Below, piece by piece: positions 3,045-64,000 of a DNA stretch of 64,000 nt. The stretch lies in assembly GCF_036246005.1 (NCBI RefSeq), contig NZ_CP109171.1:7738001-7802000 (forward strand). Direction: 5' to 3'. The number at the start of each line of letters is the position of its first letter. Positions within the stretch are counted from its first letter, which is position 1. This stretch comes from Streptomyces sp. NBC_01723 (lineage in GTDB: Bacteria; Actinomycetota; Actinomycetes; Streptomycetales; Streptomycetaceae). Under the pieces are notes generated by a model. It was not told the DNA's origin. It worked only from the letters and a program-made list of their open reading frames with translations, and did no database searches. A program made the translations under genes and the position numbers.

Positions 3045-3062
3045 GACGAGCGGAGGACCGTG

Positions 3063-9416: not shown

Positions 9417-9629
9417 ATGACCAACCCCTTCGAGGACCCGGAAGCCACCTACCTCGTGCTCGTCAACGACGAGGGGCAGCACTCGTTGTGGCCCGCCTTC
9501 ATCGACGTACCGGCCGGCTGGGAGGTGATCCTCAGTGAGTCCAGCCGCCAGGAATGCATGGACTTCATCGAGACCAACTGGACCGACCTCCGCCCCAACA
9601 GCCTGATCAAGGCCATGGAGAACAACTAG
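9417..9629 (+). CDS. MbtH-like protein
   Basis: A 70-residue protein with the family signature: [10 protein letters not shown], then P-A-G-W, then C-M-D-F-I-E, and W-T-D-L-R-P-N-S-L at the end. MbtH-like proteins bind adenylation domains and are often needed for their folding and activity. Hpg- and Tyr-using domains are well-known clients. It lies 94 bp before the first NRPS gene in the same direction and is likely co-transcribed. Length is standard for the family, and no other copy is in the window. Confidence 0.93.
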
Positions 9630-9723: not shown

Positions 9724-12700
9724 ATGTCCCATGACGCGGAAAACGGCCAGGAGCTGATGACGGGGCAACTCGCCATCTGGAACGCACTCCAACTCGAACC
9801 CGTGGACCCGATCTTCAACATCGCCGAATACCTCGACATCCGGGGCGACCTGAATGTCGAGGTCTTCGTCGCCGCACTGCGCCGGCTCCTGGGCGAATGC
9901 GACTCCCTCCACGCCTGTTTCCGCGGCACCGGCACGGAGGCCAGGCAGCACTGGATGCCGCCGGACCGCCTGCCCATCCACGTCATGGACGTCTCCTCCG
10001 CCGCCGACCCCGCCGCGGCCGCGGTCGAGTGGATGCGCACCGACATGAACCGCTCCCTCGACGTGGCGAACGGCCCCCTCGCCACCCACGCCGTCTTCCG
10101 GATCGCGGAGCGGCGCTACTTCTGGTACATGTGCGCCCACCACCTCGTCGGAGACGGCTTCAGCGCCACCGTGCTCGTCGCCAGGCTGTCGCACATCTAC
10201 GCCGCCCTGCTCGCCGGCGAGGACCCCGCCGAGTCCGAGGATGTCCTGGAGTCCTCCGCACTCCTCCTGGAGGAGGACCGCAGATACCGCCAGTCGGAAG
10301 AATTCCAGGAGGACCGGCGCTTCTGGCTCGACCTGCTCGCCGACTGCCCCCGCACGGCCACCATCAGCGGCCTGCCCGTACGCAGGGCCAGATTCCTGCG
10401 CCGCAGGCACTTGGTCGAGGTCGACCGCGACCAGGCGGCCCGCATGAGGTCGTCCGCACGGAGACTCCGCACCAGCCTGGCCGGACTCGCGATCACCGCC
10501 GGCGCCGCATGCCTGCACCAGATCACCGGAGCCGACGATCTCACCTTCGGCATCCCCGTCCTGGGACGCGCCAACAACCGCCTGCGCGGAATCCCGGGCA
10601 CCACCACCAACATCGTCCCCGTCCGCTCCAGACTGGACCCCCGCGCCACGCTGGCCGACCTCGTACGGGCCACCTCGCGCAACGTCCGTGCCTCACTGAA
10701 GCACCAGCGCTACCACCAGATGGACATCCTCAAGGACCTGCACCGCGTGGGATCGGGCCCCGTCTTCGGCACGATCCTCAACGTCATGTCGTTCGACTAC
10801 CAGGTCACGTTCGGAGACTGCACGGCAACGGCCCACAACATCTCCAGCGGACCGGTCGACGACGTCCAGATCTCCATCTACGACCGCTCGACCGACGCCG
10901 GCTTCGAGATCGCCGTCGACGTGAACCCCGAGGCCTACAGCGCCGAAGCGGCCGAGGACATCGCCCGCCGCTTCCTGAACGCCCTGGAACAGCTGACCGA
11001 GGCTCCCCCCACGGAGCCGGTCGGCCGCTTGCAGCTGCTCTCGGAATCGGAGCGCCACCAGGTGCTCTCCGAGTGGAATGACACGGGTGTGGTGGTGGGG
11101 GATGTGTCGGTGTTGGGTTTGTTCGGGGAGGTGGTGGGGCGGGATCGGGGTGCGGTGGCGGTGGTGTGTGGTGATGAGCGGGTGTCGTATGGGGAGTTGG
11201 ATGTGCGGTCGGATCGGTTGGCGGGTGTGTTGAGGGGTCTTGGGGTGGGGCCTGAGTCGGTGGTGGGGGTGGTGTTGGAGCGGTCGGTTGATTTGGTGGT
11301 GGCGTTGTTGGCGGTGTGGAAGGTGGGGGGTGTGTATGTGCCGGTGGATGTGGAGGTGCCGGCGGAGCGGGTGGGTTGGGTGGTGGGGGATGCGGGGGCG
11401 GTGTGTGTGGTGTCGTGTCGTGGGTTGGTGGGGGGTTTGTTGGGGGGTGTGTCGGTGCCGGTGGTGTGTGTGGATGAGGTGGGGGCTGGTGCGGTGGGGG
11501 CTGGTGGGGTGGGGGCTGGTGTGGTGGGTGCGGTGGGGTCGGGTGGTGCGGCGTATGTGATGTATACGTCGGGGTCGTCGGGGGTGCCGAAGGGTGTGGT
11601 GGTGTCGCATGGGGGGTTGGTTAATCGGTTGTTGTGGATGCAGGGGCGGTTTGGGCTGGGTGTTGATGATGTGGTGTTGCATAAGGCGTCGGTGGGTTTT
11701 GATGTGTCGTTGTGGGAGTTGTTGTGGCCGTTGGTGGTGGGTGCGCGGTTGGTGTTGGCGCGGCCGGGTGGGCATCGGGATCCGGTGTATTTGTCGGGGT
11801 TGATTGAGGGTGAGGGGGTGACGACGGTTCATTTTGTGCCGTCGATGTTGGGGGTGTTTGTTGAGGGGGGTGTGGTGGGTGGTTGGGGTTCTTTGCGGCG
11901 GGTGGTGTGTTCGGGTGAGGTGTTGTCGGGGGTGTTGGCGGAGCGGTTTGTGGGGTTGTGTGGTGCGGAGTTGCATAATTTGTATGGTCCGACGGAGACG
12001 TCGGTGGATTCGACGGCGTGGGTGTGGCCGGGGTCGGGTTCGGGTGGGGTTTCTGGTGGGGGTTCGGGTTCGGGTTCGGGTTCGGGTGTGGTGGTGCCGT
12101 TGATTGGTGGTCCTATTTGGAATACGCGGGTGTTTGTGTTGGATGGGTGGTTGCGGCCGGTGGCGCCGGGTGTGGTGGGGGAGTTGTATATCGCGGGGGT
12201 GGGGTTGGCTCGGGGGTATGTGGGGCGGGCTGGGTTGACGGGGGAGCGGTTTGTGGCGTGTCCGTTTGGTGGTGTGGGTGAGCGGATGTATCGGACGGGG
12301 GATTTGGTGCGGTGGGTTGGGGGTGGGGAGTTGGCTTTTGTGGGGCGGGTGGATGGTCAGGTGAAGGTGCGGGGGGTGCGGGTTGAGCCGGGTGAGGTGG
12401 AGGGGGTGTTGGGGTCTCATGCGGGGGTGGGGCAGGTGGTGGTTGTTCCGCGTGAGGATGTGCCGGGGGATGTGCGGCTCGTCGCCTATGTCGTCCCCGA
12501 CAGGGAGGTCGGCGAGGCCGAAGCCGAGGCACTGCCCGGGATGTTGCGTGCACACGTGAGCCGACGGTTGCCGGAGTACATGGTGCCGTCGGCGGTGCTG
12601 GTCCTGGACGAACTGCCGTTTACGGTGAACGGGAAGCTGGACCGGGCGGCGCTGCCGGCACCGGAGCACTCGTCTGCCGGTGGGCGGGGTCCCGCGTCGG

Positions 12701-15700: not shown

Positions 15701-18369
15701 TGGTCGCCTACGTCGTGCCCGAGGGCGACGGCCCGCTGGGCGGTGACCTGAGGCGCTTTACGGCTGAGCGGTTGCCGGAGTACATGGTGCCGTCGGCGGT
15801 GGTGGTGCTCGACGGGCTGCCGTTGTCGGTGAACGGGAAGCTGGACCGTTCCGCGCTGCCGGCGCCGGAGTATTCGTCTGCAGGTGGGCGGGGGCCTGCC
15901 ACGGTGGCTGAAGAGCTGGTGTGCCAGGTCTTCGCGGATGTCCTGGGCGTCGACCGTGTAGGGGTGGAGGACAACTTCTTCGAGCTGGGTGGGCATTCGT
16001 TGCTGGCGGTGTCGTTGGTGCAGCGGTTGCGTGAGCGTGGGTTCGGGGTGTCGGTGAGGGCGCTGCTGGTGGCGCCGACCCCGGCAGGCTTGGCTGCGGC
16101 CGGTGCTGGTGGCGAGGGTGTGGTGGAGGTGCCTGCGAACGGGATTCCCGAGCAGGGTGTGGAGGTGATTACGCCGGAGATGCTGCCGTTGGTGGAGCTG
16201 ACAGCCGCCCAGATCGATTTGGTGTGTGAGTCGGTGGAGGGTGGGGCGGCGAACGTGACGGATGTGTATCCGCTGGCGCCGTTGCAGGAGGGCATCTTCT
16301 TCCATCATCTGCTGGCCGGCCCGGGTGAGGCGGATGTGTACCTCGTGCCGATGGTGTTGGGCTTCGACAGTCGTGAGCGGCTGGACGGGTTCCTGGCGGC
16401 GTTGCAGCGGGTCGTGGACCGGCACGACATCTACCGCACCGGGCTGGTGTGGGAGGGGCTGCCTGAACCGGTGCAAGTGGTCGCCCGCCGTGCGGTCGTT
16501 CCGGTGACCGAGGTGACGTTGCAGGAGGGTGGTGGAGACCCGGCCGCGGCGCTGCTGTCGGTGGCGGGTGAGTGGATGGACCTGCGGCGGGCGCCCCTGG
16601 TTCGGGTGCACGTTGCGGCCGAGCCGGGGATGCCGGGCCGGTGGGTGGCGTTGGTGCAGGCGCATCACTTGTTGCAGGACCACGCCGCGTTGGAGGTGGT
16701 GCTGGGCGAGGTGGCGGCGTTTATGACAGAGGACGGTGACCGTCTCCCAGAGCCGCTGCCGTTCCGTGGCTTCGTGGCTCAGGCGCGGTTGGGGGTTTCG
16801 CGTGTGGAGCATGAGGAGTTCTTTGCGGAGCTGTTGGGCGATGTGACAGAGCCGACGCTGCCGTTCGGATTGGCCGATGCTCGTGGTGATGGTTCCGGTG
16901 TGCAGCGGGCGCGGCTGGCAGTGGATGACCTATTGGCCTACAGGGTGCGGGAGCGGGCCCATGGTCTGGGTGTCTCTCCGGCAACGTTGTTCCATGTGGC
17001 GTGGGCGCGAGTGCTGGCGAGTTTGTCCGGCCGGACGGACGTCGTGTTCGGGACTGTGCTGCTGGGCCGGATGAATGCCGGGCTAGGCGCGGACCGGATC
17101 CCGGGTCCGTTCATGAACACTCTGCCGGTCCGGGTGCACGTTGATAAGGATGTCATCGGTGCGGTGCGGGCGATGCAGGCCCAGCTGGCCGGCCTCCTGG
17201 TGCACGAGCATGCCCCGCTGGCCCTGGCGCAGAAGGCCAGCGGCGTCCCGGCCTCAGCCCCGCTGTTCACCTCCCTGCTGAACTATCGCCACACCCAGCT
17301 GTCGGGTGAGCACCCCGGCGACGGTGATCTGAACGGCATCGACGGCGTGACGATGCTTTACGGGAGAGGTGTCACCAACTATCCGCTGGCCTTGGCAGTG
17401 GATGACACGGGGAATGGGTTCCGGCTGACGGCCGATGCACTTCAGCCTGCTGATCCCGAGTTGGTGTGCGGGCTGATGCACACGGCGGTCGGGAGTCTCG
17501 TCGAGGCTTTGGAGAGCGCGCCGGGCACGGGGCTGCGTGGGCTTGAGGTGTTGTCGGAGGGTGTTCGGGGGCGGGTGTTGGTTGGGTGGAATGAGTCGGG
17601 TGTGGTGGGGGTGTCGGGTGTGGTGCCGGGGTTGTTCGGGGAGCAGGTGGTACGGACTCCGGATGCGCCGGCGGTGGTGGGTGTGGGGGAGACGCTGTCG
17701 TATGGGGAGTTGGATGAGCGGGCGTCTCGGTTGGCGGGTGTGTTGAGGGGTCGGGGTGTGGGGCCTGAGTCTGTGGTGGGGGTGTTGTTGGAGCGGTCGG
17801 TGGATGTGGTGGTGGCGTTGTTGGGGGTGTGGAAGGCGGGGGGTGCGTATCTGCCGGTTGATCCGGAGTCTCCGGCGGAGCGGGTGGCGTGGTTGTTGGA
17901 GGATGCGGGTCCGGTGTGTGTGGTGACCAGTGCGGAGTTGGCGGGTGGGTTGCCGCAGGGTCTGGCGGTGTTGGTGGATGAGGCGGTGGGTGAGGGGCCG
18001 GTGGTGTCGGCTGAGGCCGTGGTGGGTCCGGGGCATGCGGCGTATGTGATGTATACGTCGGGGTCGACGGGGCGGGCGAAGGGTGTGGTGGTGTCGCATG
18101 GGGCGTTGGCGGGTTATGTGGCGTGGTGTGTGGGGGCGTATCCGGGGGTGCGGGAGAGCAGTCTGCTGCATGGGTCGGTGTCGTTTGATCTGGGTGTGAC
18201 GGGGTTGTATGCGGCGTTGGTGTCGGGTGGGTGTGTGTTCGTGTCGGGGCTGGATGAGGGTCTGCCGGGGGTGCTGGGTGGGCGTCGTCTGGGCTTTTTG
18301 AAGGTGACGCCGAGCCATCTGCCGTTGCTGGATGCGTTGGCGGGGAGTGTGTTCCGACGGGCCAGTTGA
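9724..18369 (+). CDS. NRPS gene 1, 5' fragment (modules 1-2 and part of 3)
   Basis: First part of a ten-module NRPS whose frame breaks at 18342-18345. Order: C-A(Ser)-T, C/E-A(X)-T, C/E-A(Asp, N-terminal half). The start is ATG 9724, with GAGGAGGT at 9705-9713 at good spacing; a TTG at 9652 is in frame but has no such site. The protein opens with a complete C domain (HHLVGDG at 10138-10158), so something must be delivered to module 1: a fatty acid, another acyl group, or a residue from another protein. No acyl ligase or free carrier protein is in the window. The last 8 residues (SVFRRAS before TGA 18367-18369) are out of frame compared with sister Asp domains at 34470 and 53830. Fragment 18366-42059 is the continuation of the same gene. 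Confidence 0.9.
11074..12487 (+). repeat. 1.4-kb Ser adenylation repeat, copy 1
   Basis: Aligns without gaps to 40161-41574 at a constant offset of 29,087 bp. Reading both by eye I found about four substitutions. The repeat covers almost all of the A domain up to the A8/A9 region and stops abruptly at GTCGCCTA, where the C-terminal subdomains diverge. Confidence 0.85.
12060..12086 (+). repeat. (GGGTTC)4-GGG G-quadruplex-type repeat
   Basis: Five GGG tracts separated by three bases on the coding strand, encoding alternating Gly-Ser in a loop of the module 1 Ser adenylation domain. It meets the usual G3-N1-7 definition of a G-quadruplex motif. The identical run occurs at 41147-41173. Confidence 0.8.
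12891..16095 (+). other. NRPS module 2: C/E-A(X)-T
   Basis: The dual C/E domain opens with [16 protein letters not shown] sequence (VTPEML here) and [15 protein letters not shown], with a second motif HHLLQDH at 13453-13473. A3 core is [12 protein letters not shown] near 14845; NGK at 15832; carrier Ser 15997-15999. Pocket code DGLSLGTVMK is one I cannot assign; the same code recurs in modules 7 and 13. A dual C/E domain follows, so D-X is predicted. Confidence 0.75.
14182..14202 (+). repeat. (GGGTCT)3-GGG repeat
   Basis: Four GGG tracts with three-base spacers, encoding GSGSG in the C-terminal part of the dual C/E domain of module 2. Repeated exactly at 49739-49759 in module 13. Confidence 0.75.
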
Positions 18370-19307
18370 TGGTGGGCGGCGAAGCCCTCGGCTGGGATGC
18401 GGTGCAGCGGTGGCGTGAGGCGCATCCGGGTGTGGTGGTGGTGAATCACTACGGTCCGACGGAGGGGACGGTTGGTTCGGCGCATTACGTGATTGGTGCC
18501 GATCAGAGTGTGGGTGTGGGTTCGGTTCCGATCGGTCGGTCGTTTGCGACGACGAGGACGTTTGTGCTGGACCGGTTCCTGGAGCCGGTGGCGCCTGGGG
18601 TTGTGGGTGAGTTGTATGTGGCGGGGATGCAGTTGGCCCGCGGGTATCTGGGCCGTCCGGGGTTGACGGGGGAGCGTTTCGTGGCGTGTCCGTTTGGCGG
18701 GCCGGGTGAGCGGATGTACCGGACGGGGGATCTGGTCCGGTGGACCGCGGACGGGCAGCTGGTGTTCGTCGGGCGTGCGGATGATCAGGTGAAGCTGCGT
18801 GGCTACCGGATTGAGCCGGGTGAGGTGGAGGCCGTGCTGGCGGCGCATCCCGCGGTGGGCCGGGCGGTGGTGCTGGTCCGTGAGGACGTCCCGGGGGACA
18901 GGCGTCTGGTGGCCTACGTCGTCGCGGACGGTCAGGCCGTCGGTGGTGGTGACCTGCGGGGCTTGGTGGCTGAGCGGTTGCCGCAGTACATGGTGCCGTC
19001 GGCGGTGGTGGTGTTGGACGGGATGCCGTTGACGGCGAACGGGAAGGTGGACCGGGCTGCCTTGCCGGCCCCCGAGCATGCGTCGGCCGGTGGACGGGGT
19101 CCTGCGACGGTCCTCGAGGAGCTGGTGTGTGGGGTGTTCGCAGAGGTGCTGGGTGTGGAGCGGGTGGGGGTGGAGGACAACTTCTTCGAGCTGGGCGGGC
19201 ACTCCCTGCTGGCGGTGACCCTGGCGTCCCGGCTGCGCGAGCGCGGGCTCGGCGTCTCCGTGCGGGCACTCCTGATGGCACCGACGCCGGCCGGGCTGGC
19301 TGCGGCC
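16096..19307 (+). other. NRPS module 3: C/E-A(Asp)-T, frame broken inside A
   Basis: Dual C/E with HHLL at 16303 and HHLLQDH at 16663-16683. A3 core [12 protein letters not shown] near 18050, with Ala in place of the usual Pro. Combining both frames gives code DLTKMGHVGK, an aspartate-type code (Asp DLTKVGHIGK; Asn usually has E where H is). NGK 19038; carrier Ser 19203-19205. A dual C/E domain follows: D-Asp. The frame break at 18342-18345 falls between the A4 and A5 regions. Confidence 0.75.
18342..18345 (+). other. Frameshift site 1 (one G missing)
   Basis: Here the sequence reads gcggggagtgtgttccg. The sister module at 53821 reads gcgggggagtgtgttccg, five G's against four, and keeps the frame (LAGECVPTG). 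The single-base loss ends the upstream frame at TGA 18367. The downstream frame is open at once and continues the adenylation domain without loss of sequence. Confidence 0.85.
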
Positions 19308-22300
19308 GCGGGAACCGGTGGCGGCGGTGCGGTGGACGTTCCGCTGAACGGGATCCCCGGGGAAGGCGCGGAGGTCATCACGCCGGAGATGCTGCCGTTG
19401 GTCGAGCTGACGCCGGCGCAGATCGGTCTGGTCTGCGCGTCGGTCGAGGGCGGCGCGGCGAACGTGGCGGACGTGTACCCGCTGGCACCTGTGCAGGAGG
19501 GCATCTTCTTCCACCACCTGATCACCGACTCAGGGGACGCAGACCCCTATCTCCTCTCACTCGCTCTGGGCTTCGACAGTCGTGAGCGGCTGGACGGGTT
19601 CCTGGCCGCGTTGCAGCAGGTGGTGGACCGGCACGACATCTATCGCACCGGGGTGATCTGGGAAGGGCTGCCCGAACCGGTACAGGTGGTCTGGCGGCGT
19701 GCCGCCGTCCCGGTCAGAGAGGTCGTCCTGCCCGGGAACGGCGACGCGGCGGCCGAGCTGCTGGAGGTCGCCGGGCGGTGGATGGACGTGCGGCGGGCGC
19801 CGTTGCTTCGGGTGGTGGTGGCGGCCGACCCGGCGACGGGGCGCTGGTTGGCAGTGGTGCAGGTCCACCATCTGTTGCGCGATCACACGGCTCTGGAGGT
19901 GGTGCTGAGCGAGGTCGTCGCGCTGCTGGACGGGCGCGGGCACGAGTTGCCGGTGCCGCTGCCCTTCAGGGACTTCGTTGCCCAGGCGCGGCTGGGGATG
20001 TCCCGCGCGGAGCATGAGGCGCACTTCGCGGAGCTGTTGGGCGGAGTGACGGAGCCGACGCTGCCGTTCGGTCTGGCCGATGCCCATGGCGACGGTTCCG
20101 ATGTGCAGCGGGTGCGGATGGCGGTGGACGACCTGCTGGCGCGGCGGGTACGAGAGGGGGCGCGTGCGCTGGGGGTGAGTCCGGCGACGTTGTTCCACGT
20201 GGCGTGGGCGCGAGTTCTGGCGAGCCTCGCGGGCAGGACGGACGTGGTCTTCGGGACCGTGCTGCTGGGCCGCATGAACGCGGGGGCGGGGGCCGAGCGG
20301 ATTCCCGGCCCGTTCATGAACACCCTGCCGGTGCGGATGGACGTAGCTGATCTGGACGCCCTTGGCGCGGTGCGGGCCATGCAGGAGCAGCTGGCCGGCC
20401 TGCTGGTGCACGAACACGCTCCTCTCGCCCTGGCGCAGGTGGCCAGCGGGGTACCGGCCTCGGTGCCGCTGTTCACCACGCTGTTCAACTACCGTCACGG
20501 AAACCGCGTGCCCGGGGACGACACGCACGCCGGCGGGATGGCCGGCATGACGGTCCTGTCGACCGAGGACCGGACGAACTACCCCTTGGTGGTCTCGGTC
20601 GATGACTCCGGGACCGGGTTCGTGTTGACGGCCGGGACGGCGGCACCGGGCGATCCGGAGCTGGTGTGCGCGTCGCTGCACACCGCCCTCGAGAGCCTGA
20701 TCACCGGGCTGGAGGAGGCGCCGTCCACGCCGCTCCCCGCGGTGGAGGTGTTGGCACCCCGGGATCGTTCGCGGGTCCTGGAACGGTGGAACGACACCAC
20801 GAAGACGCTGCCCGACGTGACGGTGGTGGACCTGTTCGAGCGACAGGTGGCGCGGACCCCCGACGCACCGGCGGTGATCTGCGGGGAGGAGGAGATCGGC
20901 TACGCCCACCTCGACGATCGGGCGTCACGACTGGCCCGGGTGCTGGTGGACCGGGGTGTCGGCCCGGAGTCGGTGGTGGCGGTCGCGATGGACCGCTCGA
21001 TCGACCTGGTCGTGGCCCTGCTGGCGGTGCTGAAGGCCGGCGGCGCATACCTGCCCGTTGACCTGGCGTACCCGGAACAACGCGTCGCCTTCCTGCTCGC
21101 CGACGCGCGTCCGGTCTGCGTGATCGCCCGCGCCTCGTGGCGGGAGGAGGGGGCCGCCGGACTGGGCCTGCCGATGCTCACGGTCGACGGACACGGCATC
21201 GGGGACCGTATCGGGAACGGCCCTGACCCTGCCGAGGACACCGAAGCCGGTGCGGGCGGCGGTGAGCGCCCCCTGCTCCTCCCCGCCCACCCGATGTACG
21301 TGATGTACACCTCCGGCTCCACCGGCACCCCGAAGGGAGTCACGGTCACCCACGCGGCAGTGGTCAATCACGTACTCGCCCGTGTCGCGGAGTTCGGATG
21401 GGACCGGACGGACCGGCTGATGCTCACCGCACCCATGGGTTTCGACCCCTCGGTGTGGCAGACCTTCTGTCCCTTGGTGATCGGCGCGAGCTTGGTCATC
21501 GCGCCTACCGGGAGCACGGCCGACCCCGCTCACCTGGTGGAACTGGTACGGCGCCACGACGTGACGGTGCTGCACCTCATCGCCTCGGCCCTGGCCGGGG
21601 TCCTGGAGGAGCCGACCGTGTCCGGCCTGTCCTCCCTGCGGCAGCTGGCCAGCGGCGGTGAGGCGGTGCCCGGAGCCCTGCGAGACCGGGCCTTCGCGCT
21701 GTTCCCGCACGTCGACCTCGTCCAGGGCTACGGACCGGCCGAGACCTGCATCGCGGTGACCTGGCACCGCTGCTCCAGCGAGGAGGAGACGGTCCCGCCG
21801 ATCGGAGGCCCCGTCGCCAACACTCGCCTGTACGTGCTGGACCGGTACCTGCGGCCGGTCCCGCCCGGGGTCGCCGGTGAACTGTATGTAGCGGGCCTGC
21901 CGCTGGCCCGCGGTTACCACCATCGTCCGGGGCTGACCGGAGAGCGGTTCGTGGCATGCCCGTACGGCGGTGCCGGTGAGCGGATGTACCGGACCGGCGA
22001 CCTGGTGCGGTGGCGTGCGGACGGTGTGCTGGTGTTCATGGGGCGGGCGGACGACCAGGTGAAGATCCGTGGTTTCCGGATTGAGCCGGGTGAGGTCGAG
22101 GCTGTGTTGGTCGCGCATCCGGGGGTGGTTCAGGCTGCGGTGATGGCGCGTGAGGATGTGCCGGGGGATAGGCGTTTGGTTGCGTATGTGGTGGTGGAGG
22201 GGTCGGAGGTTGCGGAGGGGTTGGGTTCGCGGTTGCGGGGGTGGGTGGCGGGGAGGTTGCCGGAGTTCATGGTGCCGTCTGCGGTGGTGGTGTTGTCGGG

Positions 22301-45000: not shown

Positions 45001-45180
45001 TGGGGTGTTCGCGGAGGTTTTGGGTGTGGAGCGGGTGGGGGTGGAGGACAACTTCTTCGAGTTGGGTGGGCATTCGTTGCTGGCGGTGTCGTTGGTGCAG
45101 CGGTTGCGTGAGCGTGGGTTCGGGGTGTCGGTGCGGGTGTTGTTCGAGGCGCCGTCGCCGGGGGCGTTGGCTGCTGCGGG
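42056..45180 (+). other. NRPS module 11: C-A(Hpg)-T
   Basis: Standard-type C domain with HHIAGDA at 42443-42463. A3 core near 43910; NGK 44909; carrier Ser 45074-45076. Pocket code DAFHLGLLCK: Hpg. A dual C/E domain follows: D-Hpg. This C domain joins the two proteins and must accept the ten-residue chain from module 10. Confidence 0.83.
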
Positions 45181-53800: not shown

Positions 53801-56800
53801 TGCCGTTGCTGGAGGCGTTGGCGGGGGAGTGTGTTCCGACGGGCCAGTTGATGGTGGGCGGCGAAGCCCTCGGCTGGGATGCGGTGCAGCGGTGGCGTGA
53901 GGCGCATCCGGGTGTGGTGGTGGTGAATCACTACGGTCCGACGGAGGGGACGGTTGGTTCGGCGCATTACGTGATTGGTGCCGATCAGGGTGTGGGTGTG
54001 GGTTCGGTTCCGATCGGTCGGTCGTTTGCGACGACGAGGACGTTTGTGCTGGACCGGTTCCTGGAGCCGGTGGCGCCGGGTGTGGTGGGTGAGTTGTATG
54101 TGGCGGGGATGCAGTTGGCCCGCGGGTATCTGGGCCGTCCGGGGTTGACGGGGGAGCGTTTCGTGGCGTGTCCGTTTGGCGGGCCGGGTGAGCGGATGTA
54201 CCGGACGGGGGATCTGGTCCGGTGGACCGCGGACGGGCAGCTGGTGTTCGTCGGGCGTGCGGATGATCAGGTGAAGCTGCGTGGCTACCGGATTGAGCCG
54301 GGTGAGGTGGAGGCCGTGCTGGCGGCGCATCCCGCGGTGGACCGGGCGGTGGTGCTGGTCCGTGAGGACGTCCCGGGGGACAAGCGCCTGGTGGCCTACG
54401 TCGCCGCCGACCGCGAGGGCGACCAGGATGATGACGGACTGACGGCTGAGCTGCGCGCATCCGTGGGGCAGCGGCTGCCGGAGTACATGGTGCCGTCGGC
54501 GGTGGTGGTGCTCGACGGCATGCCGTTGACGGCGAACGGCAAGGTGGACCGGGCCGCGCTGCCGGCGCCGGAGTTCAGCTCGGATGTGAACGGTCGAGGT
54601 CCTGCCACGGTGCTGGAAGAGGTCGTGTGCGGGGTGTTCGCAGAGGTGCTGCGGCTGGAACGGGTGGGAGCGGAGGACAACTTCTTCGAGCTGGGCGGGC
54701 ACTCCCTGCTGGCGGTGACCCTGGCGTCCCGACTGCGTGACCGCGGCTTCGGCGTGTCGGTACGGGCATTGTTCGAGGCGCCGACACCGGCGTCGCTGGC
54801 TGCGGCAGCGAGTGCCGGTGGCGGTGGTGTGGTGGAGGCGCCGCCCAACGGGATTCCGGAGGGCGCGGAGGTCATCACGCCGGAGATGCTGCCGTTGGTC
54901 GAGCTGACGCCGGCGCAGATCGACCTGGTCTGCGCGTCCGTCGAGGGCGGCGCGGCGAACGTGGCGGACGTGTACCCGCTGGCACCTGTGCAGGAGGGCT
55001 TCTTCTTCCACCACTTGCTGGCCGGTCCTGGTGGGACGGATGTCTATTTCGAGGGGATCGTGCTGGGCTTTGACAGCCGTGAGCGGCTGGACGGGTTCCT
55101 GGCGGCGTTGCAGCGGATGGTGGGGCGCCACGACATCTACCGGACCGGGGTGGTGTGGGAGGGGCTGCCCGAGCCGGTGCAGGTGGTCTGGCGGCGTGCC
55201 GTTGTCCCGGTGACGGAGGTGACCCTGTCGCGCGACGGGGACCCGGTGGCGGAGCTACGGGCCATCGCCGGGCGGTGGATCGACCTGCGAGACGCGCCGC
55301 TGGTACGGGTGCATGTGGCCGCGGAGCCGACCAGCGAGGGTGGCGACCGCTGGATGGGTCTGGTGCAGGTGCACCACCTCCTCCAGGACCACACCGCACT
55401 GGAAGCGGTGCTTCGAGAGGTCGCGGCGTTCATGGAGGGGCGCGACGACGAGCTGTCGGCACCCCTGCCGTTCCGTGACTTCGTGGCCCAAGCCCGGTTG
55501 GGGGTCTCCCGTGAGGAGCACGAGGAGTACTTCACGGAGCTGTTGGGTGACGTGACGGAGTCGACGCTGCCGTTCGGCCTGTCCGATGCTCGTGGTGACG
55601 GCTCCGACTTGGAGCAGGCGAGGCTGAGCGTGGATGCCGAGCTGGTGGGACGGGTGCGGGAGCAGGCCCGTCAGCTCGGCGTGAGTCCGGCGACGTTGTT
55701 CCATGTGGCGTATGCGCGAGTCCTGGCGAGCCTCGCCGGCCGGACGGACGTGGTGTTCGGGACCGTGCTGCTGGGCCGCATGAACGCCGGGCGGGGTGCG
55801 GATCGGAATCTGGGCCCGTTCATGAACACCCTGCCGGTCCGGGCCGATGTCGCCGAGGACGACGTGGTGGGTGCGGTGCGGGCCATGCAGGCCCAGCTGG
55901 CCGGCCTGCTGGTGCACGAACACGCTCCCCTCGCCCTGGCGCAGAAGGCCAGCAGCGTCCCCGCGCGCGCCCCGCTGTTCACCTCCATTTTCAATTACCG
56001 CAACAGCCAGCGGTGGGGTGCTCTGCCGAACGGCGGTGACAGGGTCGGATTGGCCGGCGTGTCCGTGGTGCACCGGAGGGGAGGCACCAACTACCCGTTG
56101 ACCGTGGCGGTGGACGACATGGGCTCTGGGTTCGGGCTGACGGTGGACGCCCTCGAGCCGGGTGATCCCGAGTTGGTGTGCGGGTTGATGCACACGGCGG
56201 TCGAGAGTCTCGTCGAGGCCTTGGAGAACGCGCCGGGCACAGAGCTGCATGGGCTCGAGGTGTTGTCGGAGGGTGAGCGGGAGCGGGTGTTGGTTGGGTG
56301 GAATGAGTCTGGCGTGGTGGAGGCCTCAGGCGTGGTGCCGGAGTTGTTCGCGGAGCGGGTGGTGCGGGATCCCGGTGCGGTAGCGGTGGTGGATGGGCGG
56401 GTGGAGTTGTCCTATGAGGAGTTGGATGAGCGGGCGTCTCGGTTGGCGAGTGTGCTGAGGGTGCGTGGGGTGGGGTTGGAGTCGGTGGTGGGGGTGATGC
56501 TGGAGCGATCGGTGGACGTGGTGGTCGCGTTGTTGGCGGTGTGGAAGGCCGGCGGTGCGTACCTGCCGATCGATCCGGAGTATCCCGCGGATCGCGTAAC
56601 GATGATGTTGGAGGACGCGGGCCCGGTGTGTGTGGTGACCAGTGACGGGCTGGTCGGGCGACTGCCGGAGGGCCTTGGGGTGGTGGTGGATGAGGCGGTG
56701 ACGGCCGGTGAGCTGATGGAGCCGGTGCGGGTCGAGTCGGGGCATGCGGCGTATGTGATCTATACGTCGGGGTCGACGGGTCGGCCGAAGGGTGTGGTGG

Positions 56801-59800
56801 TGTCGCATGGGGCGCTGGCCGGCTACGTGGCCTGGTGTGTGGAGGCTTATCCGGGGGTGCGGGAGAGCAGTCTGCTGCACGCGTCGGTGTCATTCGACGC
56901 GGGTGTGACGGGTCTGTTCGGAGGGTTGGTGAGCGGTGGGTGTGTGTTCGTGTCCGGGCTCGATGAGGGTCTGCCGGCGGTGCTGGGTGAGCGCCGTCTG
57001 GGCTTCCTGAAGGTGACGCCAAGCCACCTGCCCGTGCTGGAGGCGTTGCCGGAGGCGTGTGTCCCGACGGATCAGTTGATGGTGGGCGGCGAGGCCTTGA
57101 GCTGGAGCCTGGTGGAGCGGTGGCGCGAGGCGCACCCGGGGCTGGCCGTCGTGAATCACTACGGGCCGACGGAGGCTACGGTCGGCTGCGCGCACTACGA
57201 GATCGGTGCGGGTGAGGGCGACGGAGGTGCGGGTTCGGTTCCGATCGGGCGGTCGTTCGCCACGACGAGGACTTTCGTCCTGGATGGATGGATGCGCCCG
57301 GTGGCGCCGGGCGTGGTGGGTGAGTTGTACGTGGCGGGCGTGCAGCTGGCCCGCGGATATCTCGGTCGTCCCGGCCTGACCGCGGAGCGGTTCGTGGCGT
57401 GCCCGTACGGCGGGCCGGGTGAGCGGATGTACCGGACGGGAGACTTGGTCCGATGGACGATCGACGGGCAGCTGGTGTTCGTCGGGCGGGCGGACGACCA
57501 GGTGAAGGTACATGGGTACCGGATCGAACCGGGTGAGATCGAGGCCGTACTGGCCGCGCATCCGGACGTCGACCAGGTGGTGGTGATCGCCCGTGAGGAC
57601 ACCTCCGGCGACAAGCGACTGACGGCGTACGTCGTCGCCGAGGACGGCGGTGGTGTGGGCGCTGGTCTGGCCGCTGAGCTCCGCGCCCACACGGCGCAGA
57701 GACTGCCGGAGTACATGGTGCCGTCCGCGGTGGTGGTGCTGGACGAGTTGCCGTTGATGGTGAACGGAAAGCTGGACCGGGCGGCGCTGCCTGCACCCGA
57801 CTACGGGATCGCGGGTGGCAAGGGACGCGGGCCGGCCTCGGTGGTCGAGGAAGTCGTGTGCGCGGTCTTCGCCGAGGTGCTGGGCCTGGAGCAGATCGGG
57901 GTCGACGACAACTTCTTCGAACTGGGCGGCCACTCGCTGCTCGCGGTGTCGTTGGTGTCCCGGCTGCGCGAATGGGGACTGGGGATCTCGGTGCGGGCGC
58001 TCTTCGAGACACCCACACCGGCCGGGTTGGTCGATGCCGGCAACGGACCGGTTGTGGAGGTGCCGCCGAACGGCATTCCGGACGGCGCCGAGGCCATCAC
58101 GCCCGAGATGCTGCCGTTGGTGGAGCTCACGGCCGCGCAGGTGGAGTTGGTGTGTGCGGCGGTCGACGGCGGAGCGGGCAACGTGGCGGACGTGTACCCG
58201 CTGGCGCCCTTGCAGGAGGGCATCTTCTTCCACCACCTGCTCGCCGATCCGGGGGAGGCGGATCCGTACCTCCGCTCTCTCGCCATGGGCTTTGACGGCC
58301 GTGAGCGGCTGGACGGGTTCCTGGCCGCGTTGCAGCAGGTGGTGGACCGGCACGACATCTACCGCACCGGCGTGATGTGGGAAGGCCTGCCCGAGCCGGT
58401 GCAGGTGGTGCGGCGGCGCGCGGTCGTTCCGGTGACAGAGGCGACGCTGACGGACGGAGGGCACCCGGCGGCGGAGCTCATCGCGATCGCCGGCCGGTGG
58501 ATGGATGTCCGACGGGCGCCGCTGCTGCGCGTCTACGTGGCGGCGGAGCCGGGCAGCGAGCGGTGGGTGGCACTGGTGCAGGTGCACCACCTGCTGCAGG
58601 ACCACACAGCGTCCGAGGTGGTACTGGGTGAGGTCGCGGCCCTCATGACCGGGCGTGGGGACACCCTGCCGGTACCGCTGCCCTTCCGCGACTTCGTGGC
58701 CCAGGCGCGGCTGGGTGTGTCCCGCGCGGAACACGAGGAGTACTTCGCCCAGCTGCTGAGGGACGTGACGGAACCGACGCTGCCGTTCGGCCTGGCCGAC
58801 GCCCGCGGGGACGGCACCGGCGCCCAGCAGGCACGCGTGATGGTTGACGACTCCCTGGCGGAGAGGGTGCGGGAGCGAGCGCGTGGGCTCGGGGTGAGCC
58901 CGGCGACGTTGTTCCATGTGGCGTGGGCGCGGGTGCTGGCCGTACTGGCCGGCCGGTCGGACGTGGTGTTCGGGACCGTGTTGCTCGGCCGGATGAACGC
59001 CGGGGTGGGAGCTGAGCGGATCCCTGGGCCCTTCATGAACACGCTGCCGGTGCGGATGGACGTCGCGGATACGGATGTGGTGGGTGCGGTGCGGGCGATG
59101 CAGGCCCAGCTGGCCGGCCTGCTGGTGCACGAGCACGCGCCCCTCGCCCTGGCCCAGGCGGCCAGCGACGTCCCGACGTCCGTTCCGTTGTTCACGGCGC
59201 TGTTCAACTACCGCCACAGCAATCGAGTGCGGTCGGACGCGCCGCAGTCCGGCGACACACGGCCGGGTGGGGTGGCCGGCATGAGGGTGCTGCTGGGTGA
59301 GGATCGAACGAACTATCCGTTGGCGGTCTCGGTCGATGATCTGGGGGTCGGCTTCGGGCTGACGACCGGTGTGGTCGCGCCCGGCGACCCGCAGCTCGTA
59401 TGTGACTTGATGCAGACGGCGGTCGAGAGCCTGGTCACGGCCCTGGAGGAAGCGCCACGGACCCCGTTGCGTGCGGTGGAGGTGTTGGCGCCGGCGGGTC
59501 GTGAGCGGGTGTTGGTGGAGTGGAACGACACCGATCGTGTGGTGCCCGAGGAGACGGTGGTGGGTCTGTTCGAGCGGCAGGTGGTGCGGGATCCGGGTGC
59601 GGTGGCGGTGGAGCAGGGTGGGGTGGGTGTGTCGTATGGGGAGTTGAATGCTCGTGCGAATCGGTTGGCGCGGGTGTTGGTGGGTGAGGGGGTGGGTGCG
59701 GAGTGTGTGGTGGCGGTGTCGTTGGAGCGGTCGGTTGATCTGGTGGTTGCTCTGCTTGCTGTGTGGAAGGCGGGCGGGGCGTATGTGCCGGTGGATCCTG

Positions 59801-60267
59801 GGTGGCCGGCGGGGCGTGTGGGTGTGGTGTTGCGGGATTGTGGTGTGCGGGTTGCGGTGGCGGATGTGGGTTCGGGTGGCGGGGTGTTTGGTGGGGTGGC
59901 GGGGGAGTGTGGGGTGCGGGTGGTGGGGGTGGGGGCTGGTGTTGGGTTGGATGGGGGGGACTTGGGTGTGGGTGGGTTGGGGGGTGTGGCGGCGTATGTG
60001 ATGTATACGTCGGGGTCGTTGGGGGTGCCGAAGGGTGTGGTGGTGTGTCAGCGGGATGTGGTGGGTTTGGTGGTGGATGGGTGTTGGGGTGAGGTGGTGG
60101 GGCGTCGGGTGTTGGGGTGGGCGCCGTTTGCGTTTGATGCGTCGGTGTTTGAGTTGTGGGTGACGTTGGCTGGTGGTGGGGTGGTGGTGTTGGCGCCGGT
60201 GGGTGAGGTGGATGGTGGTGTGTTGCGGTCGTTGGTGGGGGTGGTGGGTTGGATCGGGTGCATGTGA
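50434..60267 (+). CDS. NRPS gene 2, middle fragment (rest of module 13, modules 14-15, part of 16)
   Basis: Continuation of gene 2 after the break at 50431; the apparent start lies in the A3 core (GVVVSQ) and is an artefact of the break. Order: A(X, rest)-T, C-A(Asp)-T, C/E-A(Asx)-T, C/E-A(Hpg, first half). The dual C/E domain of module 15 has a slightly altered first motif ([11 protein letters not shown] where sisters have GEAD). The frame ends at TGA 60265-60267 soon after a second break at 60237-60241; the last residues (VVGWIGCM) are out of frame compared with the four sister Hpg domains. The next fragment, 60240-64000, continues the same gene. Confidence 0.9.
51676..54810 (+). other. NRPS module 14: C-A(Asp)-T
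   Basis: Standard C domain with HHVAGDG at 52096 (module 8 copy offset by 19,345 bp). A3 core near 53530; NGK 54535; carrier Ser 54703-54705. Pocket code DLTKMGHVGK: aspartate. A dual C/E domain follows: D-Asp. Confidence 0.8.
54811..58040 (+). other. NRPS module 15: C/E-A(Asp/Asn-like)-T
   Basis: Dual C/E with HHLL at 55009 and HHLLQDH at 55372. A3 core [12 protein letters not shown] near 56760; NGK 57763; carrier Ser 57934-57936. Pocket code DATKMGHVGK: an Asp-type pocket with Ala in the second position where sisters have Leu. It is more diverged and more C-rich than the other Asp domains. A dual C/E domain follows: D. Confidence 0.65.
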
Positions 60268-61310
60268 CGGCGGGGTTGTTGCGGGTGTTGGTGGAGGAGG
60301 ATGCGGGTTGTTTTGCTGGGGTGGGTGAGGTGTTGACGGGTGGGGATGTGGTGCCGTCGTCTGCGGTGTCGGGGGTGTTGGGGGCTGCTCCGGAGTCTTT
60401 GGTGCGGCATTTGTATGGGCCGACGGAGGTGACGTTGTGTGCGACGCAGTGGGTGGTGGGGGATGTGGGGTTGGTGCCGGGGGTGTTGCCGATGGGGCGG
60501 CCGTTGGAGAACACGCGGGTGTATGTGCTTGATGATGGTCTGTCTCCGGTGCCTGCGGGTGTTGTGGGTGAGTTGTATGTGGCGGGTATGGGGGTGGCGC
60601 GGGGGTATCAGGGGCGGTCTGGGCTGACGGGTGAGCGGTTCGTTGCGTGTCCGTTCGGTGTGCCGGGTGGGCGGATGTACCGGACTGGAGACCTGGTGCG
60701 GTGGAGTGCGGACGGGCAGCTGGTGTTCGTCGGGCGTGCGGATGATCAGGTGAAGGTCCGCGGCTTCCGGGTCGAGCCGGGTGAGGTGGAGGGCGTGCTG
60801 GCGGCGCATCCGGGGGTGAGTCAGGCGGTGGTGGTCGCACGCGAGGCCGGCCTCGGTGACAAGCGACTGACCGCGTATGTGGTCGCCGCTCACGGTGCCG
60901 GTGCGGATGATGACGATGACTTGGCTGGGCAGGTACGGGCCTTCGCCGACGGGCGGCTGCCGGAGTACATGGTGCCCTCCGCGGTGGTGATGCTGGACGA
61001 GTTGCCGCTGTCGGTGAACGGCAAGGTGGACCGAGCGGCGTTGCCCGACCCGGAGTACGGGACGTCCGAGGGTGGGCGGGGGCCGACGACCGCGGTCGAG
61101 GAGATCCTGTGTGGTGTGTTCGCGGAGCTGTTGGGCCTGACGCGGGTTGGTGTGGAGGACCACTTCTTCGAGCTGGGTGGGCATTCACTGTTGGCGACGC
61201 GCTTGGTGTCGCGGGTGCGGTCGGTGTTCGGGGTCGAGGTGAGTGTGCGGGCCCTGTTCGAGGCTCCGACGCCGGCGGGCTTGGCTGCGCGGATCGCGGG
61301 TGCGGATGCG
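58041..61310 (+). other. NRPS module 16: C/E-A(Hpg)-T, frame broken inside A
   Basis: Dual C/E with HHLL at 58231 and HHLLQDH at 58585. A3 core near 60005; frame break at 60237-60241; NGK 61017; carrier Ser 61185-61187. Combined code DAFHLGLLCK: Hpg. The N-terminal half matches module 6. The next C domain is standard: L-Hpg. Confidence 0.8.
60237..60241 (+). other. Frameshift site 3 (one G missing)
   Basis: This stretch has five G's (gttggtgggggtggtggg), whereas the same place at 28061-28066 has six, in the context [13 protein letters not shown]. Dropping one G gives [13 protein letters not shown] and a stop. The correct frame reopens from 60240 and runs to the end of the window. Confidence 0.87.
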
Positions 61311-64000
61311 GCGCGAGTGAACCTGACGCCGTGGGAGCGGCCTGAGCGGGTTCCGTTGTCGTTTGCTCAGCGGCGGTTGTGGTTCTTGGCGCAGTTGGAG
61401 GGGCCGAGTGCGACGTACAACATGCCGGTTGCGTTGCGGTTGGAGGGTGCGCTGGATGTGGCCGCGCTGCGGGCGGCGTTGGAGGATGTGCTGGATCGGC
61501 ATGAGGTGTTGAGGACGGTGTTCCCGGTGGTGGACGGGGAGCCGTATCAGGAGGTGTTGGCGCCTTCGGCGGTGGGTGGGGTGCTGCGGGTTGTGCGGGC
61601 TGGCGAGGGGGAGGTGGCGGGTCTGGTGGTGGAGGAGACCGGGCGCGGGTTCGATCTCGGGGTTGAGGTGCCGTTGCGGGCGTTGTTGGTTGAGGTCGGC
61701 GTGGATGTGCATGTGTTGGTGGTGGTGGTGCATCACGTTGCGGGGGATGGGTGGTCGATGGGGCCGTTGGCGCGGGACATCTCGGTGGCGTATGCGGCAC
61801 GGCGTGCGGGTGAGGCCCCGGGGTGGGAGCCGTTGCCGGTGCAGTACGCGGACTACACCCTGTGGCAGCGGGAGCTGCTGGGTGATGAGGGTGATCCGGG
61901 CAGTGTGCTGGCCGGCCAGGTGGGTTTCTGGCGAGATGCGCTGGCCGGGGCACCGCAGGAGCTTGTGCTGCCGGGAGATCGGCTGCGGCCTGCGGTGGCC
62001 TCGCACCGGGGCCACACGGCGTCGCTGGTGGTCCCGGCGGAGGTGCACGCGCAGCTGACGGCGTTGGCGCGGGAGCAGGGCGTGACCCTGTTCATGGTGG
62101 TGCAGGCCGCGCTGGCCGTGCTGCTGTCCCGGCTCGGTGCGGGCGAGGACATTCCCGTCGGTACGGCTGTGGCCGGCCGTACGGATCAGGCGCTGGATGA
62201 TCTCGTCGGCTTCTTCGTCAACACGCTGGTGTTGCGTACGGATGTGTCGGGGGATCCGACCTTCGGCGAGCTGTTGGGGCGGGTGCGGGAGACAAGCTTG
62301 GCGGCTTTGGAGCATCAGGAGGTGCCGTTCGAGCGGTTGGTGGAGGTTCTGGCGCCGGACCGTTCGCTGGCGCGGCATCCGCTGTTCCAGGTCATGCTCA
62401 CTCTGCAGAATCAAGGCCAGGCAAGGCTGGACCTCCCGGGTCTTCGGGTGGCGCCGGTGTCGGGTGGGTTGGGTGTCGCGAAGTTTGATCTTGATGTGTC
62501 ATTGGGTGAGGTGACTGATGGTGAGGGCCGCCCGGTGGGGTTGCGGGGGTCGGTTACCGGGGCGGCGGATCTGTTCGATGCGGGGACCGTGGATGCGGTC
62601 GCTGCTCGGTTGGTGAAGGTCCTGTCGCTGGTGGCCGCGGACCCGCAGGCTCGGGTGGGGCAGGTCCAGGTGCTGTCGGAGGCGGAACGGCACCAGGTGG
62701 TGACCGGCTGGAACGACACCGCCGAGCCGGTGCCTGATGCGACGTGGGTGGAGTTGTTCGCGGAGCAGGTGGCGCGGCATCCGGGTGCGGTGGCGGTGGT
62801 GTGTGGGGAGGTGGAGTTGTCGTACGGGGAGTTGGATGAGCGGGCCTCTCGGTTGGCGGGTGTCTTGAGGGCGCGAGGGGTGGGCTCGGAGTCGGTGGTG
62901 GGGGTGATGTTTGAGCGGTCCGTGGATGCGGTGGTGGCGCTGTTGGGGGTGTGGAAGGCAGGGGGCGCCTATCTGTTCATCAATCCCTCCTATCCGGAAG
63001 AGCGCGTGGCGTTGCTGGTGGCGGAGGCCGGGCCCGTGTGCATGGTCACGGTCAGCAGCCTGACCGCTGGGTTGCCTGCTGCTCCGCCGGTGCCGGTGGT
63101 GGCGGTGGACGACCCGGCGGTAGTCACGGAACTGGCCCAGGTGGAGCCTACGGGCGTGCCGGTGCCGACTGAGCCCGGAGCGGCGGCATACGTGATGTTC
63201 ACGTCCGGATCGACGGGGCGGCCGAAGGGTGTGGTGGTGACCCAGCGGGATCTGGCTGAGTTGGTGGTGGATCAGTGCTGGGGACAACCGGGGCGGATGC
63301 TGGGGCACGGTCCGTACGAGTTCGATGCGTCGGTGCTTGAGACATGGGTGACGCTGGCTATTGGGGGAGCGGTGGTACTGGCTCCGGCCGGCAAGTTGGA
63401 TGCTGGTGTGTTGCGGTCGCTGGTAGCGGAGTACGGGCTCGACCGTGTGCATGTGACCGCGGGACTGCTGCGGATGCTGGTGGAGGAGGACCCCGGGTGC
63501 TTCGCCGGGGTGAGCGAGGTGCTGACAGGTGGGGACGTGGTTCCGTCGGCAGCGGTGTCGGCGGTGCTGGCGGCTGCTCCAGGGGCTGCGGTGCGGCAGG
63601 TGTACGGGCCGACCGAAATCACCCTGTGTGCTACCCAGATCCTGGTTGGGGACGCCGATGCGGTCCCGTCGGTGCTGCCGATCGGCCGACCGATGGACAA
63701 CACGCGTATCTACCTGCTCGACGCTGGTCTGTCGCCGGTTCTGCCCGGGGTTGCGGGTGAGCTGTACGTGGCCGGGACCGGGCTGGCCCGGGGGTATCAC
63801 GGTCGGCCGGACCTGACCGGGGAGCGGTTCGTAGCGTGCCCGCTGGGTGCGCCGGGTGAGCGGATGTACCGGACGGGGGACCTGGCCCGGTGGACCAAGG
63901 ACGGGCAGCTGGTGTTCATCGGCCGGGCGGACAACCAGGTGAAGGTGCGTGGCTTCCGGATCGAGCCGGGTGAGGTCGAGGCGGTGTTGGCTGCCCATCC
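60240..64000 (+). CDS. NRPS gene 2, 3' fragment (rest of module 16, module 17, truncated)
   Basis: This frame has no start of its own because it is the continuation of gene 2 after the break at 60237. It is open without a stop to base 64000. It encodes the second half of the module 16 Hpg adenylation domain ([12 protein letters not shown] onward), its carrier domain ([12 protein letters not shown]), a standard C domain (HHVAGDG at 61731) and an adenylation domain cut at the window edge around the A8 motif ([11 protein letters not shown]). The gene must extend further: the carrier domain of module 17 and any thioesterase lie outside. Confidence 0.9.
61311..64000 (+). other. NRPS module 17: C-A(Hpg-like), cut by window end
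   Basis: Standard C domain with HHVAGDG at 61731. A3 core [12 protein letters not shown] near 63190. Pocket code DALHLGVLCK (from [24 protein letters not shown] and [11 protein letters not shown]) differs from Hpg at two positions (F to L, L to V). Hpg or a related arylglycine is likely. The window ends before NGK. Confidence 0.65.

Follow-up and report, generated by a model that had tools for sequence, protein, structure and literature searches.

The DNA considered here is a stretch of 64,000 nucleotides from Streptomyces sp. NBC_01723 (contig NZ_CP109171.1, positions 7,738,001 to 7,802,000; G000:C1:7738001-7802000), termed the window, in a genome of 8.85 Mb assembled in two contigs. Most of it encodes a nonribosomal peptide synthetase (NRPS). 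A search of the genome for condensation (C) domains, combined with thiolation (T) motifs and the A5 motifs of adenylation (A) domains, locates 21 C-A-T modules between window coordinates of approximately 9.7 kb and 78.1 kb, with a regular spacing of 3.1–3.3 kb. The NRPS ends at window coordinate 78146, beyond the right edge of the window, where there are four further modules (18–21) and, at the terminal end, a single thioesterase motif, GWSFGG. The locus thus has the repeated modules, readable pockets and thioesterase of a modular NRPS. It is quite probably an orphan gene cluster for an acidic, probably acyl-capped nonribosomal peptide of 21 residues, mainly arylglycines. The genes in the window are the following.

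1..585, + strand: sulfotransferase 1, 3′ part (its start is some 800 bases beyond the left edge of the window); Pfam PF13469, 50.6 bits for the gene as a whole
613..1884, − strand: sulfotransferase 2 (Sulfotransfer_1); Pfam PF00685, 95.7 bits
1968..3044, + strand: HmaS-like enzyme (4HPPD family), for 4-hydroxyphenylglycine (Hpg); TIGR01263, 341.3 bits (cut-off 277)
3060..4580, + strand: flavin-dependent halogenase; closest solved chain 3e1t 'Halogenase', E 3.8e-167
4668..6560, − strand: ABC exporter; PF00664 and PF00005
6761..8158, + strand: aminotransferase, HpgT-type by context; PF00155; homologues adjoin DpgA in congeners
8308..9342, + strand: alpha/beta hydrolase; PF00561; also occurs near other genes for Hpg and 3,5-dihydroxyphenylglycine (Dpg)
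9417..9629, + strand: MbtH-like protein; PF03621, 97.6 bits
9652..18369, + strand: NRPS part 1, starter-like C domain, modules 1–2 and start of module 3; frame break in the module 3 A domain
18366..42059, + strand: NRPS part 2, remainder of module 3 through module 10
42056..50800, + strand: NRPS part 3, modules 11–12 and start of 13; frame break in the module 13 A domain
50434..60267, + strand: NRPS part 4 (open frame as listed), remainder of 13, modules 14–15 and start of 16; frame break in the module 16 A domain
60249..64000, + strand, on to 78146 outside the window: NRPS part 5, remainder of module 16, modules 17–21 and thioesterase

The gene order left of the NRPS, from about −6.4 kb (L003) to 9.6 kb, is cysteate synthase homologue, HmO-like enzyme, DpgA, DpgC, sulfotransferases 1 and 2 (the latter reversed), HmaS type, halogenase, ABC exporter (reversed), aminotransferase, alpha/beta hydrolase and MbtH; genes to the right were scanned as far as approximately 86.7 kb.

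Substrate pockets were read with a hidden Markov model from the 18 intact A domains; nine positions were read, and the tenth (Lys517) was assumed. The broken A domains of modules 3, 13 and 16 were read piecewise and left unmended. Twenty of the 21 pockets were read whole or from two pieces, and module 13 in part only.

Module 1: DVWHVSLVDK, Ser
Module 2: DGLSLGTVMK, Dpg proposed
Module 3: DLTKMGHVGK (two pieces), Asp
Module 4: DPWHAGGIAK, no substrate given
Module 5: DFWSVGMVHK, Thr
Module 6: DAFHLGLLCK, Hpg
Module 7: DGLSLGTVMK, Dpg proposed (A domain 30906..32192, + strand)
Module 8: DLTKMGHVGK, Asp
Module 9: DAFHLGLLCK, Hpg
Module 10: DVWHVSLVDK, Ser
Module 11: DAFHLGLLCK, Hpg
Module 12: DAWQFGLVDK, Gln
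Module 13: last part only, TVM; grouped with DGLSLGTVMK
Module 14: DLTKMGHVGK, Asp
Module 15: DATKMGHVGK, L-cysteate proposed (A domain 56623..57921, + strand)
Module 16: DAFHLGLLCK (two pieces), Hpg
Module 17: DALHLGVLCK, Hpg-like
Module 18: DGLSLGTVMK, Dpg proposed
Module 19: DTWTVASVDK, tentatively Trp-like
Module 20: DAWHFGVVDK, Gln/Glu
Module 21: DTWTVASVDK, tentatively Trp-like

The Ser, Thr, Asp, Hpg and Gln/Glu assignments follow established pocket rules. Module 13 is assigned to the DGLSLGTVMK type because its DNA is 96–98% identical to that of modules 2, 7 and 18. None of the 21 pockets was read as ornithine (Orn)-like. The predicted reading is acyl-D-Ser-D-Dpg-D-Asp-?-Thr-Hpg-Dpg-D-Asp-D-Hpg-Ser-D-Hpg-D-Gln-Dpg-D-Asp-D-Cya-Hpg-Hpg-D-Dpg-Trp?-D-Glx-Trp?, where Cya is cysteate. 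The peptide would thus quite probably contain five Hpg or Hpg-like residues, four Dpg, three Asp, two Ser, Thr, two Gln/Glu and one cysteate.

A first-pass annotation, limited to the window, had called at least 17 modules, a chain that runs past the right edge, and the pocket string Ser-X-Asp-Y-Thr-Hpg-X-Asp-Hpg-Ser-Hpg-Gln-X-Asp-Asx-Hpg-Hpg-like. The module count and the continuation to 78146 agree with it, and A-domain alignment reproduces the string, module 13 being placed by DNA identity. The 'Asx' pocket of module 15 is also confirmed, but the residue is more likely L-cysteate, given the cysteate synthase and the pocket association described below. The peptide remains acidic and Hpg-rich as had been proposed (five residues with the Hpg-like module 17), but with four Dpg it is nearly as much a Dpg peptide.

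The cysteate assignment begins with the upstream pyridoxal phosphate enzyme. It matches TIGR03844 at 395.6 bits (cut-off 324.9, which was passed in one of 14 named genomes used as a control), and among solved structures only 'Cysteate synthase' (9k3c/9k3o, 1.9e-95) matches it at E <= 1e-30; the next, a threonine synthase, is at 8.1e-10. The cluster thus has a cysteate synthase of its own, as a cysteate-peptide cluster should. Enzymes of this family presumably convert phosphoserine and sulfite to L-cysteate. The upstream enzyme would supply L-cysteate, and module 15 would load it by way of an Asp pocket that is larger because residue 236 is Ala and not Leu. Both steps are considered highly probable, based on an association between pocket and enzyme across the genus.

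The searches with the cysteate synthase, the module 15 A domain and the Dpg-type pocket scored the five best candidates per genome. The enzyme is found at E <= 1e-60 in 16 of 295 congener genomes, own genome included. Twelve of the 15 others have NRPS modules on the contig of the enzyme in the fetched stretches (G187, G253, G252, G104, G023, G109, G014, G140, G292, G193, G228 and G116), and in all 12, residue 236 of an Asp-like pocket is altered, the codes being DATKMGHVGK (ten genomes), DATKIGAVNK (G023) and DITKMGHVGK (G187). In G121 the enzyme is near a contig edge and DATKMGHVGK is on a different contig, which brings the number to 13 of 15. For the control, the module 15 A domain was searched against the 295 genomes, and 70 of the listed domains were read, 30 at returned loci and 40 selected further down among genomes counted as enzyme-negative (those where the cysteate synthase search gave no match at E <= 1e-60). 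Among 65 Asp/Asn-like domains from 61 enzyme-negative genomes, position 236 is Leu in 60, Met in five and Ala or Ile in none; one of the 65 (L173, DLGKTGVINK) is outside the D.TK type. The five control-list domains from enzyme-positive genomes have Ala (three), Ile (one) and Leu (one, the second domain of G292).

A midpoint-rooted tree of 87 D.TK domains, from which near-duplicates (>98.5% identical within a genome) and domains with <340 aligned residues were dropped, requires five changes at position 236. In it, the G023 domain with DATKIGAVNK is placed among DLTKxGxVNK-like domains, with low support nearby, and because it falls outside the DATKMGHVGK group, Ala236 most simply arose at least twice, both times beside the enzyme. 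The Asp domains of modules 8 and 14 group with module 15 and with the DATK domain of an orthologous cluster in Streptomyces fuscichromogenes; module 3 is too broken to include. This one midpoint-rooted tree suggests that the Asp domains of the cluster descend from a cysteate domain.

A natural point of comparison is cysteoamide of Streptomyces lincolnensis, reportedly described in J. Org. Chem. in 2018 (cited in PMC12858407). In clusters of the cysteoamide type, too, a cysteate synthase adjoins an NRPS that has the DATKMGHVGK pocket. Eight loci in eight congeners (L123–L125, L130 and L132–L135) have cysteate synthase, then a Val pocket (Thr in L130), then DATKMGHVGK, and appear cysteoamide-like. 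The pockets in G253 and G140 are Val, DATKMGHVGK, Thr, DAML(I/V)GAVCK and DVFS(A/T)GFIYK. Cysteoamide is described as a lactone of phenylacetate, Val, cysteate, Thr, hydroxy-Leu and beta-Ala (PMC13260306). The pocket order fits this product, as Val-cysteate-Thr-hydroxy-Leu-beta-Ala parallels the pocket series. In length the two systems differ, as cysteoamide has five amino acids and phenylacetate (PMC13260306), and no Hpg, Dpg, halogenase or sulfotransferase homologues were found in the 20 kb stretches read of the cysteoamide-type clusters.

Alternatively, module 15 might load plain Asp and the cysteate-synthase-like gene serve another purpose. The module 15 pocket does retain Lys278 and His322 of the cluster's own Asp pockets, and S. 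fuscichromogenes has DATKMGHVGK in the orthologous cluster but no cysteate synthase in its draft assembly (protein search; best family-model score 47.9 bits, well below the cut-off). That cluster is split over at least four contigs, and a gap might hide the enzyme. Together with two enzyme-positive genomes (G093 and G289) where the changed pocket was not found in the fetched stretches, the S. fuscichromogenes result counts against cysteate at module 15. Plain Asp is nonetheless improbable in view of the changed pocket in 13 of 15 other enzyme-positive genomes versus 0 of 65 domains from enzyme-negative genomes, the fit of the cysteoamide residue order to a cysteate reading of DATKMGHVGK and the apparent two origins of Ala236. 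Cysteate at module 15 is thus preferred.

There is a parallel in the discodermins of marine sponges. These 14-mers from Entotheonella have cysteic acid at a module whose A domain was predicted as Asp, and it is reported that no cysteate gene candidate was identified and that the origin of the cysteic acid is unclear (PMC12858407). The pairing of a cysteic acid position with an Asp-predicted A domain is as proposed here for module 15. The main text of a published pocket predictor does not contain the word cysteate (PMC13126170).

Cysteate synthase homologues occur in several other settings. Two congeners (L136, L138) have one with no NRPS match in the fetched stretches, and it may serve another sulfonate product. 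Further unassigned clusters, at L122 and L137, combine cysteate synthase with Hpg genes, and in G023 (L127–L128) it occurs together with HpgT, DpgA and DpgC homologues. A search of a plasmid collection with the cysteate synthase gave 16 records, two from Streptomyces at 49–53%.

The residue termed X in the first-pass string is that of the DGLSLGTVMK pocket, and modules 2, 7, 13 and 18 very probably load Dpg. DpgA (637.5 bits, cut-off 425) and DpgC (624.4 bits, cut-off 530) are encoded upstream, left of the window. Pockets of the form LSxGTV(M/I) were read in 20 genomes (30 loci read), and all 20 have DpgA above the family cut-off, compared with 46 of 295 congeners. The Ala322 variant, LSVGAV(I/M), was read in four genomes of the same 30 loci, and three of the four have no DpgA. 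DpgA was counted per genome, and only G093, G014, G109 and G140 showed the pocket close to DpgA (13 to 37 kb); the association also shares ancestry and is not a count of independent events. The nearest sub-domain neighbours of DGLSLGTVMK outside its own kind are DALSLGTVMK domains (63%).

In G093 and G014 an NRPS follows the DpgA locus. The other readable pockets there are Hpg and Tyr-like, plus DVAAIGQIIK and DIFHLGLLAK in G093, and the last A-like match in each is not sensibly readable. DALSVGTVMK/DGLSVGTVMK is the natural Dpg reader in these two genomes, because the remaining readable pockets are of other types. G093 and G014 were considered as feglymycin producers and rejected, as the pocket order does not fit, and hence neither could be used as a direct Dpg standard. 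Trp or Tyr as the identity of X was also rejected, as the DpgA association and the contrast between Thr322 and Ala322 favour Dpg. On the other side, G244 has the Ala322 pocket LSVGAVM yet DpgA is present, and neither DpgB nor DpgD was recognised in the scanned genes; both points speak against Dpg. A related pocket, DALSVGAVIK (L286, L287 and L289), has Ala where the proposed Dpg pocket has Thr at position 322 and is found in three genomes, none with DpgA; it probably reads another aryl amino acid.

Two pocket types are less well placed, and both detract from the reading of the peptide as a whole. For DTWTVASVDK of modules 19 and 21, the nearest sub-domain neighbours outside its own kind are DAWSVGSVCK (49%) and DGWAVASVCK (48%), from an NRPS of the same genome that resembles that of the calcium-dependent antibiotic (CDA). 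These two modules correspond to the Trp positions of CDA; a Trp-like substrate for DTWTVASVDK is a weak assignment, with the chances about even. The CDA-like system (L007–L009, G000:C1:3410001-3470000) is a second large NRPS with pockets Ser-Thr-Trp-Asp-Asp-Hpg-Asp-Gly-Asn-mGlu-Trp-like (mGlu, methylglutamate), an order matching that of CDA. Module 4 has no substrate assignment. Its pocket, DPWHAGGIAK, has no neighbour >44% except the S. fuscichromogenes counterpart (80%). That module 4 carries the main Dpg pocket was rejected on the basis of Pro236 and His278; apart from its own kind, the closest domains are of the Gln/Glu and Ser types (<=44%).

Eleven C domains, in modules 2, 3, 4, 9, 10, 12, 13, 15, 16, 19 and 21, have the motifs YPLAP(L/V)QEG(I/F)(F/L)FHHL and HHLL(Q/R)DH, and those of the remaining modules after module 1 carry HH(I/V)AGD(G/A). 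The extended first motif together with HHLL(Q/R)DH characterises dual epimerisation/condensation domains, which switch the configuration of the residue before them. Each dual domain would invert the residue of the preceding module, and D-configuration at residues 1, 2, 3, 8, 9, 11, 12, 14, 15, 18 and 20 is therefore predicted with considerable confidence. Separate epimerisation (E) domains were considered, as low-scoring PF00668 matches resemble E domains by score, and rejected, since the modules are spaced too closely to hold them and the C domains have the motifs of dual domains. The solved chains closest to the module 1 C domain are the 7c1k group, then ObiF1, EntF and CDA peptide synthetase I, and this domain is likely to be an acyl starter that adds an acyl cap. 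A point against a starter is that the genes scanned beside the NRPS include no recognisable acyl ligase or free carrier protein. The thioesterase would release the chain either linear or as a lactone on Ser or Thr.

The product may also not be a linear reading of the 21 pockets, if modules are skipped or iterated. Skipping and iteration occur in some NRPSs, and the related S. fuscichromogenes cluster differs in module order. With regular C-A-T modules at 3.1–3.3 kb spacing and one terminal thioesterase, such a departure from the linear reading seems unlikely here.

Copies of one module appear to have replaced the sequence of another across 11000–64000 of the window and on to 77000. A-domain core DNA is 100% identical between modules 19 and 21 (DTWTVASVDK), 99.7% between Ser modules 1 and 10, 99.3% between Asp modules 3 and 14, 98.1% between Hpg modules 6 and 16, 96.2% between Hpg modules 9 and 11, and 95–98% within the Dpg type. 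Less similar cores are those of Gln/Glu modules 12 and 20 (88%), module 15 versus the Asp modules (82%) and Hpg-like module 17 (72–74%).

The three frame breaks, in the A domains of modules 3, 13 and 16, are each one single-base gap relative to near-identical intact copies; the broken modules are 99.3, 97.7 and 98.1% identical, respectively, to the closest intact copies in the locus. They are a difficulty for the proposed peptide, in that the sequence as given may not yield a working assembly line. Three breaks, each one base off an intact copy, might be taken to mean that the cluster is decaying, with a silenced NRPS and no product. This is unlikely, as the near-identity of broken and intact copies in one locus would be a setting where read polishing often fails, and between the breaks there are long uninterrupted frames, the largest of 7897 codons. 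Sequencing error left in the repeats seems the more likely explanation.

The HmaS, HmO, HpgT, DpgA and DpgC types that mark an arylglycine cluster all lie beside the NRPS. The HmO-like enzyme, left of the window, is FMN-dependent, and the 4HPPD-family enzyme is read as HmaS rather than HPPD by context. DpgC (L003:17453-19120) has an N-terminal extension of approximately 170 residues; its homologues vary, some aligning over 560–585 positions and others over the C-terminal part only. The product is probably chlorinated and sulfated. The halogenase is 69.5% identical to one near glycopeptide-like pockets in G277, and would chlorinate one or more phenolic residues, likely on a carrier protein; action on phenolic residues is itself likely. 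The sulfotransferases may rather more probably than otherwise sulfate phenols or hydroxyls. Right of the NRPS are a methyltransferase, a regulator-like gene (weak helix-turn-helix match), PadR and an FtsX/MacB-type permease, whose homologues adjoin the NRPS end in S. fuscichromogenes (79, 71, 67 and 43%, respectively).

The S. fuscichromogenes CGMCC 4.7110 cluster (contigs BMML01000037, 68, 87 and 11) is orthologous and uncharacterised. It shares HmaS (77%), halogenase (83%), exporter (83%), aminotransferase (79%), sulfotransferases 1 (75%) and 2 (72%), DpgA (85%), DpgC (72%), hydrolase (65%) and methyltransferase (79%); there is no HmO match beside its DpgA. Pockets common to both clusters are DVWHVSLVDK, DGLSLGTVMK, DPWHAGGIAK, DFWSVGMVHK, DATKMGHVGK and DTWTVASVDK, and its Hpg type is DAYHLGLLCK. 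Its order differs, starting with DALFLGLLSK and Ser-Dpg-DPWHAGGIAK-Thr-Hpg and ending with Dpg-DTWTVASVDK, in a fragmented assembly. Among 391 other congeners, sulfotransferase 1 has 12 matches at E <= 1e-40, with a best identity of 45%. The cluster is strain-specific in this sample, since sulfotransferase 1 has no relative >45% in these congeners and G277, of the same species, lacks both sulfotransferase 1 and cysteate synthase. G277 has a glycopeptide-like cluster (L241–L242) with DPYHGGTLCK, DASTLGAICK and Hpg pockets.

Could the product be a known arylglycine peptide or a simple congener? Hpg and Dpg genes, MbtH and an exporter are common to other arylglycine clusters, and feglymycin shares the abundance of Hpg and Dpg and an acidic C-terminus; ramoplanin and enduracidin are cyclic peptides with an acyl start and Hpg. 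To our knowledge, none of ramoplanin, enduracidin, feglymycin and the glycopeptides contains cysteate, feglymycin has neither chlorine nor sulfate, and ramoplanin and enduracidin have cationic residues (Orn or enduracididine) and no Dpg. Feglymycin has 13 residues, drawn from Hpg, Dpg, Val, Phe and Asp (PMC5133696, PMC12416467), with the reconstructed order Hpg-Dpg-Val-Dpg-Hpg-Dpg-Hpg-Dpg-Val-Dpg-Hpg-Phe-Asp (PMC12416467); the 21 modules here are in another order. Ramoplanin and enduracidin have 17 residues (PMC4635501), and the present NRPS has 21 modules and no Orn-like pocket. Glycopeptides have a heptapeptide core (PMC11376024), against 21 modules here, and no P450 family was seen among the core genes scanned. 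A known product is thus very improbable. The first-pass view that the order is unlike these peptides holds for both length (21 modules versus 17, 13 and 7) and order. So does its view that no known product is recognised, on the basis of pocket order and of an open-access literature search (titles and starts of abstracts, with MIBiG outside the search) in which no published description of product or cluster was found. The HmaS, Hpg aminotransferase, halogenase, two sulfotransferases and exporter that it listed are all present, the first sulfotransferase starting left of the window. The programme that it called complete-looking is complete only with genes outside the window, i.e. cysteate synthase, HmO, DpgA and DpgC on the left and the rest of module 17 to module 21 and the thioesterase on the right.

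Because of the neighbouring genes, the recipe of the peptide can be read further than usual, and two residues, module 15 and X, are now assigned as most likely cysteate and Dpg. Sulfonic amino acids are rare in nonribosomal peptides. With a pocket rule linked to a supply gene, sulfonate peptides could be found by genome mining. The predicted product is strongly acidic and exceeds both feglymycin and ramoplanin in length; for phenol-rich peptides it would represent a new scaffold. It is conceivable, though still rather doubtful, that the product belongs to a new class of structure, a polyanionic peptide of 21 residues that is rich in arylglycines and bears a sulfonate. On this view the locus would reveal the pocket rule (an Asp pocket with Ala for Leu at 236, next to a cysteate synthase), and its Asp A domains would have evolved back from the cysteate domain and then spread by copying between modules.

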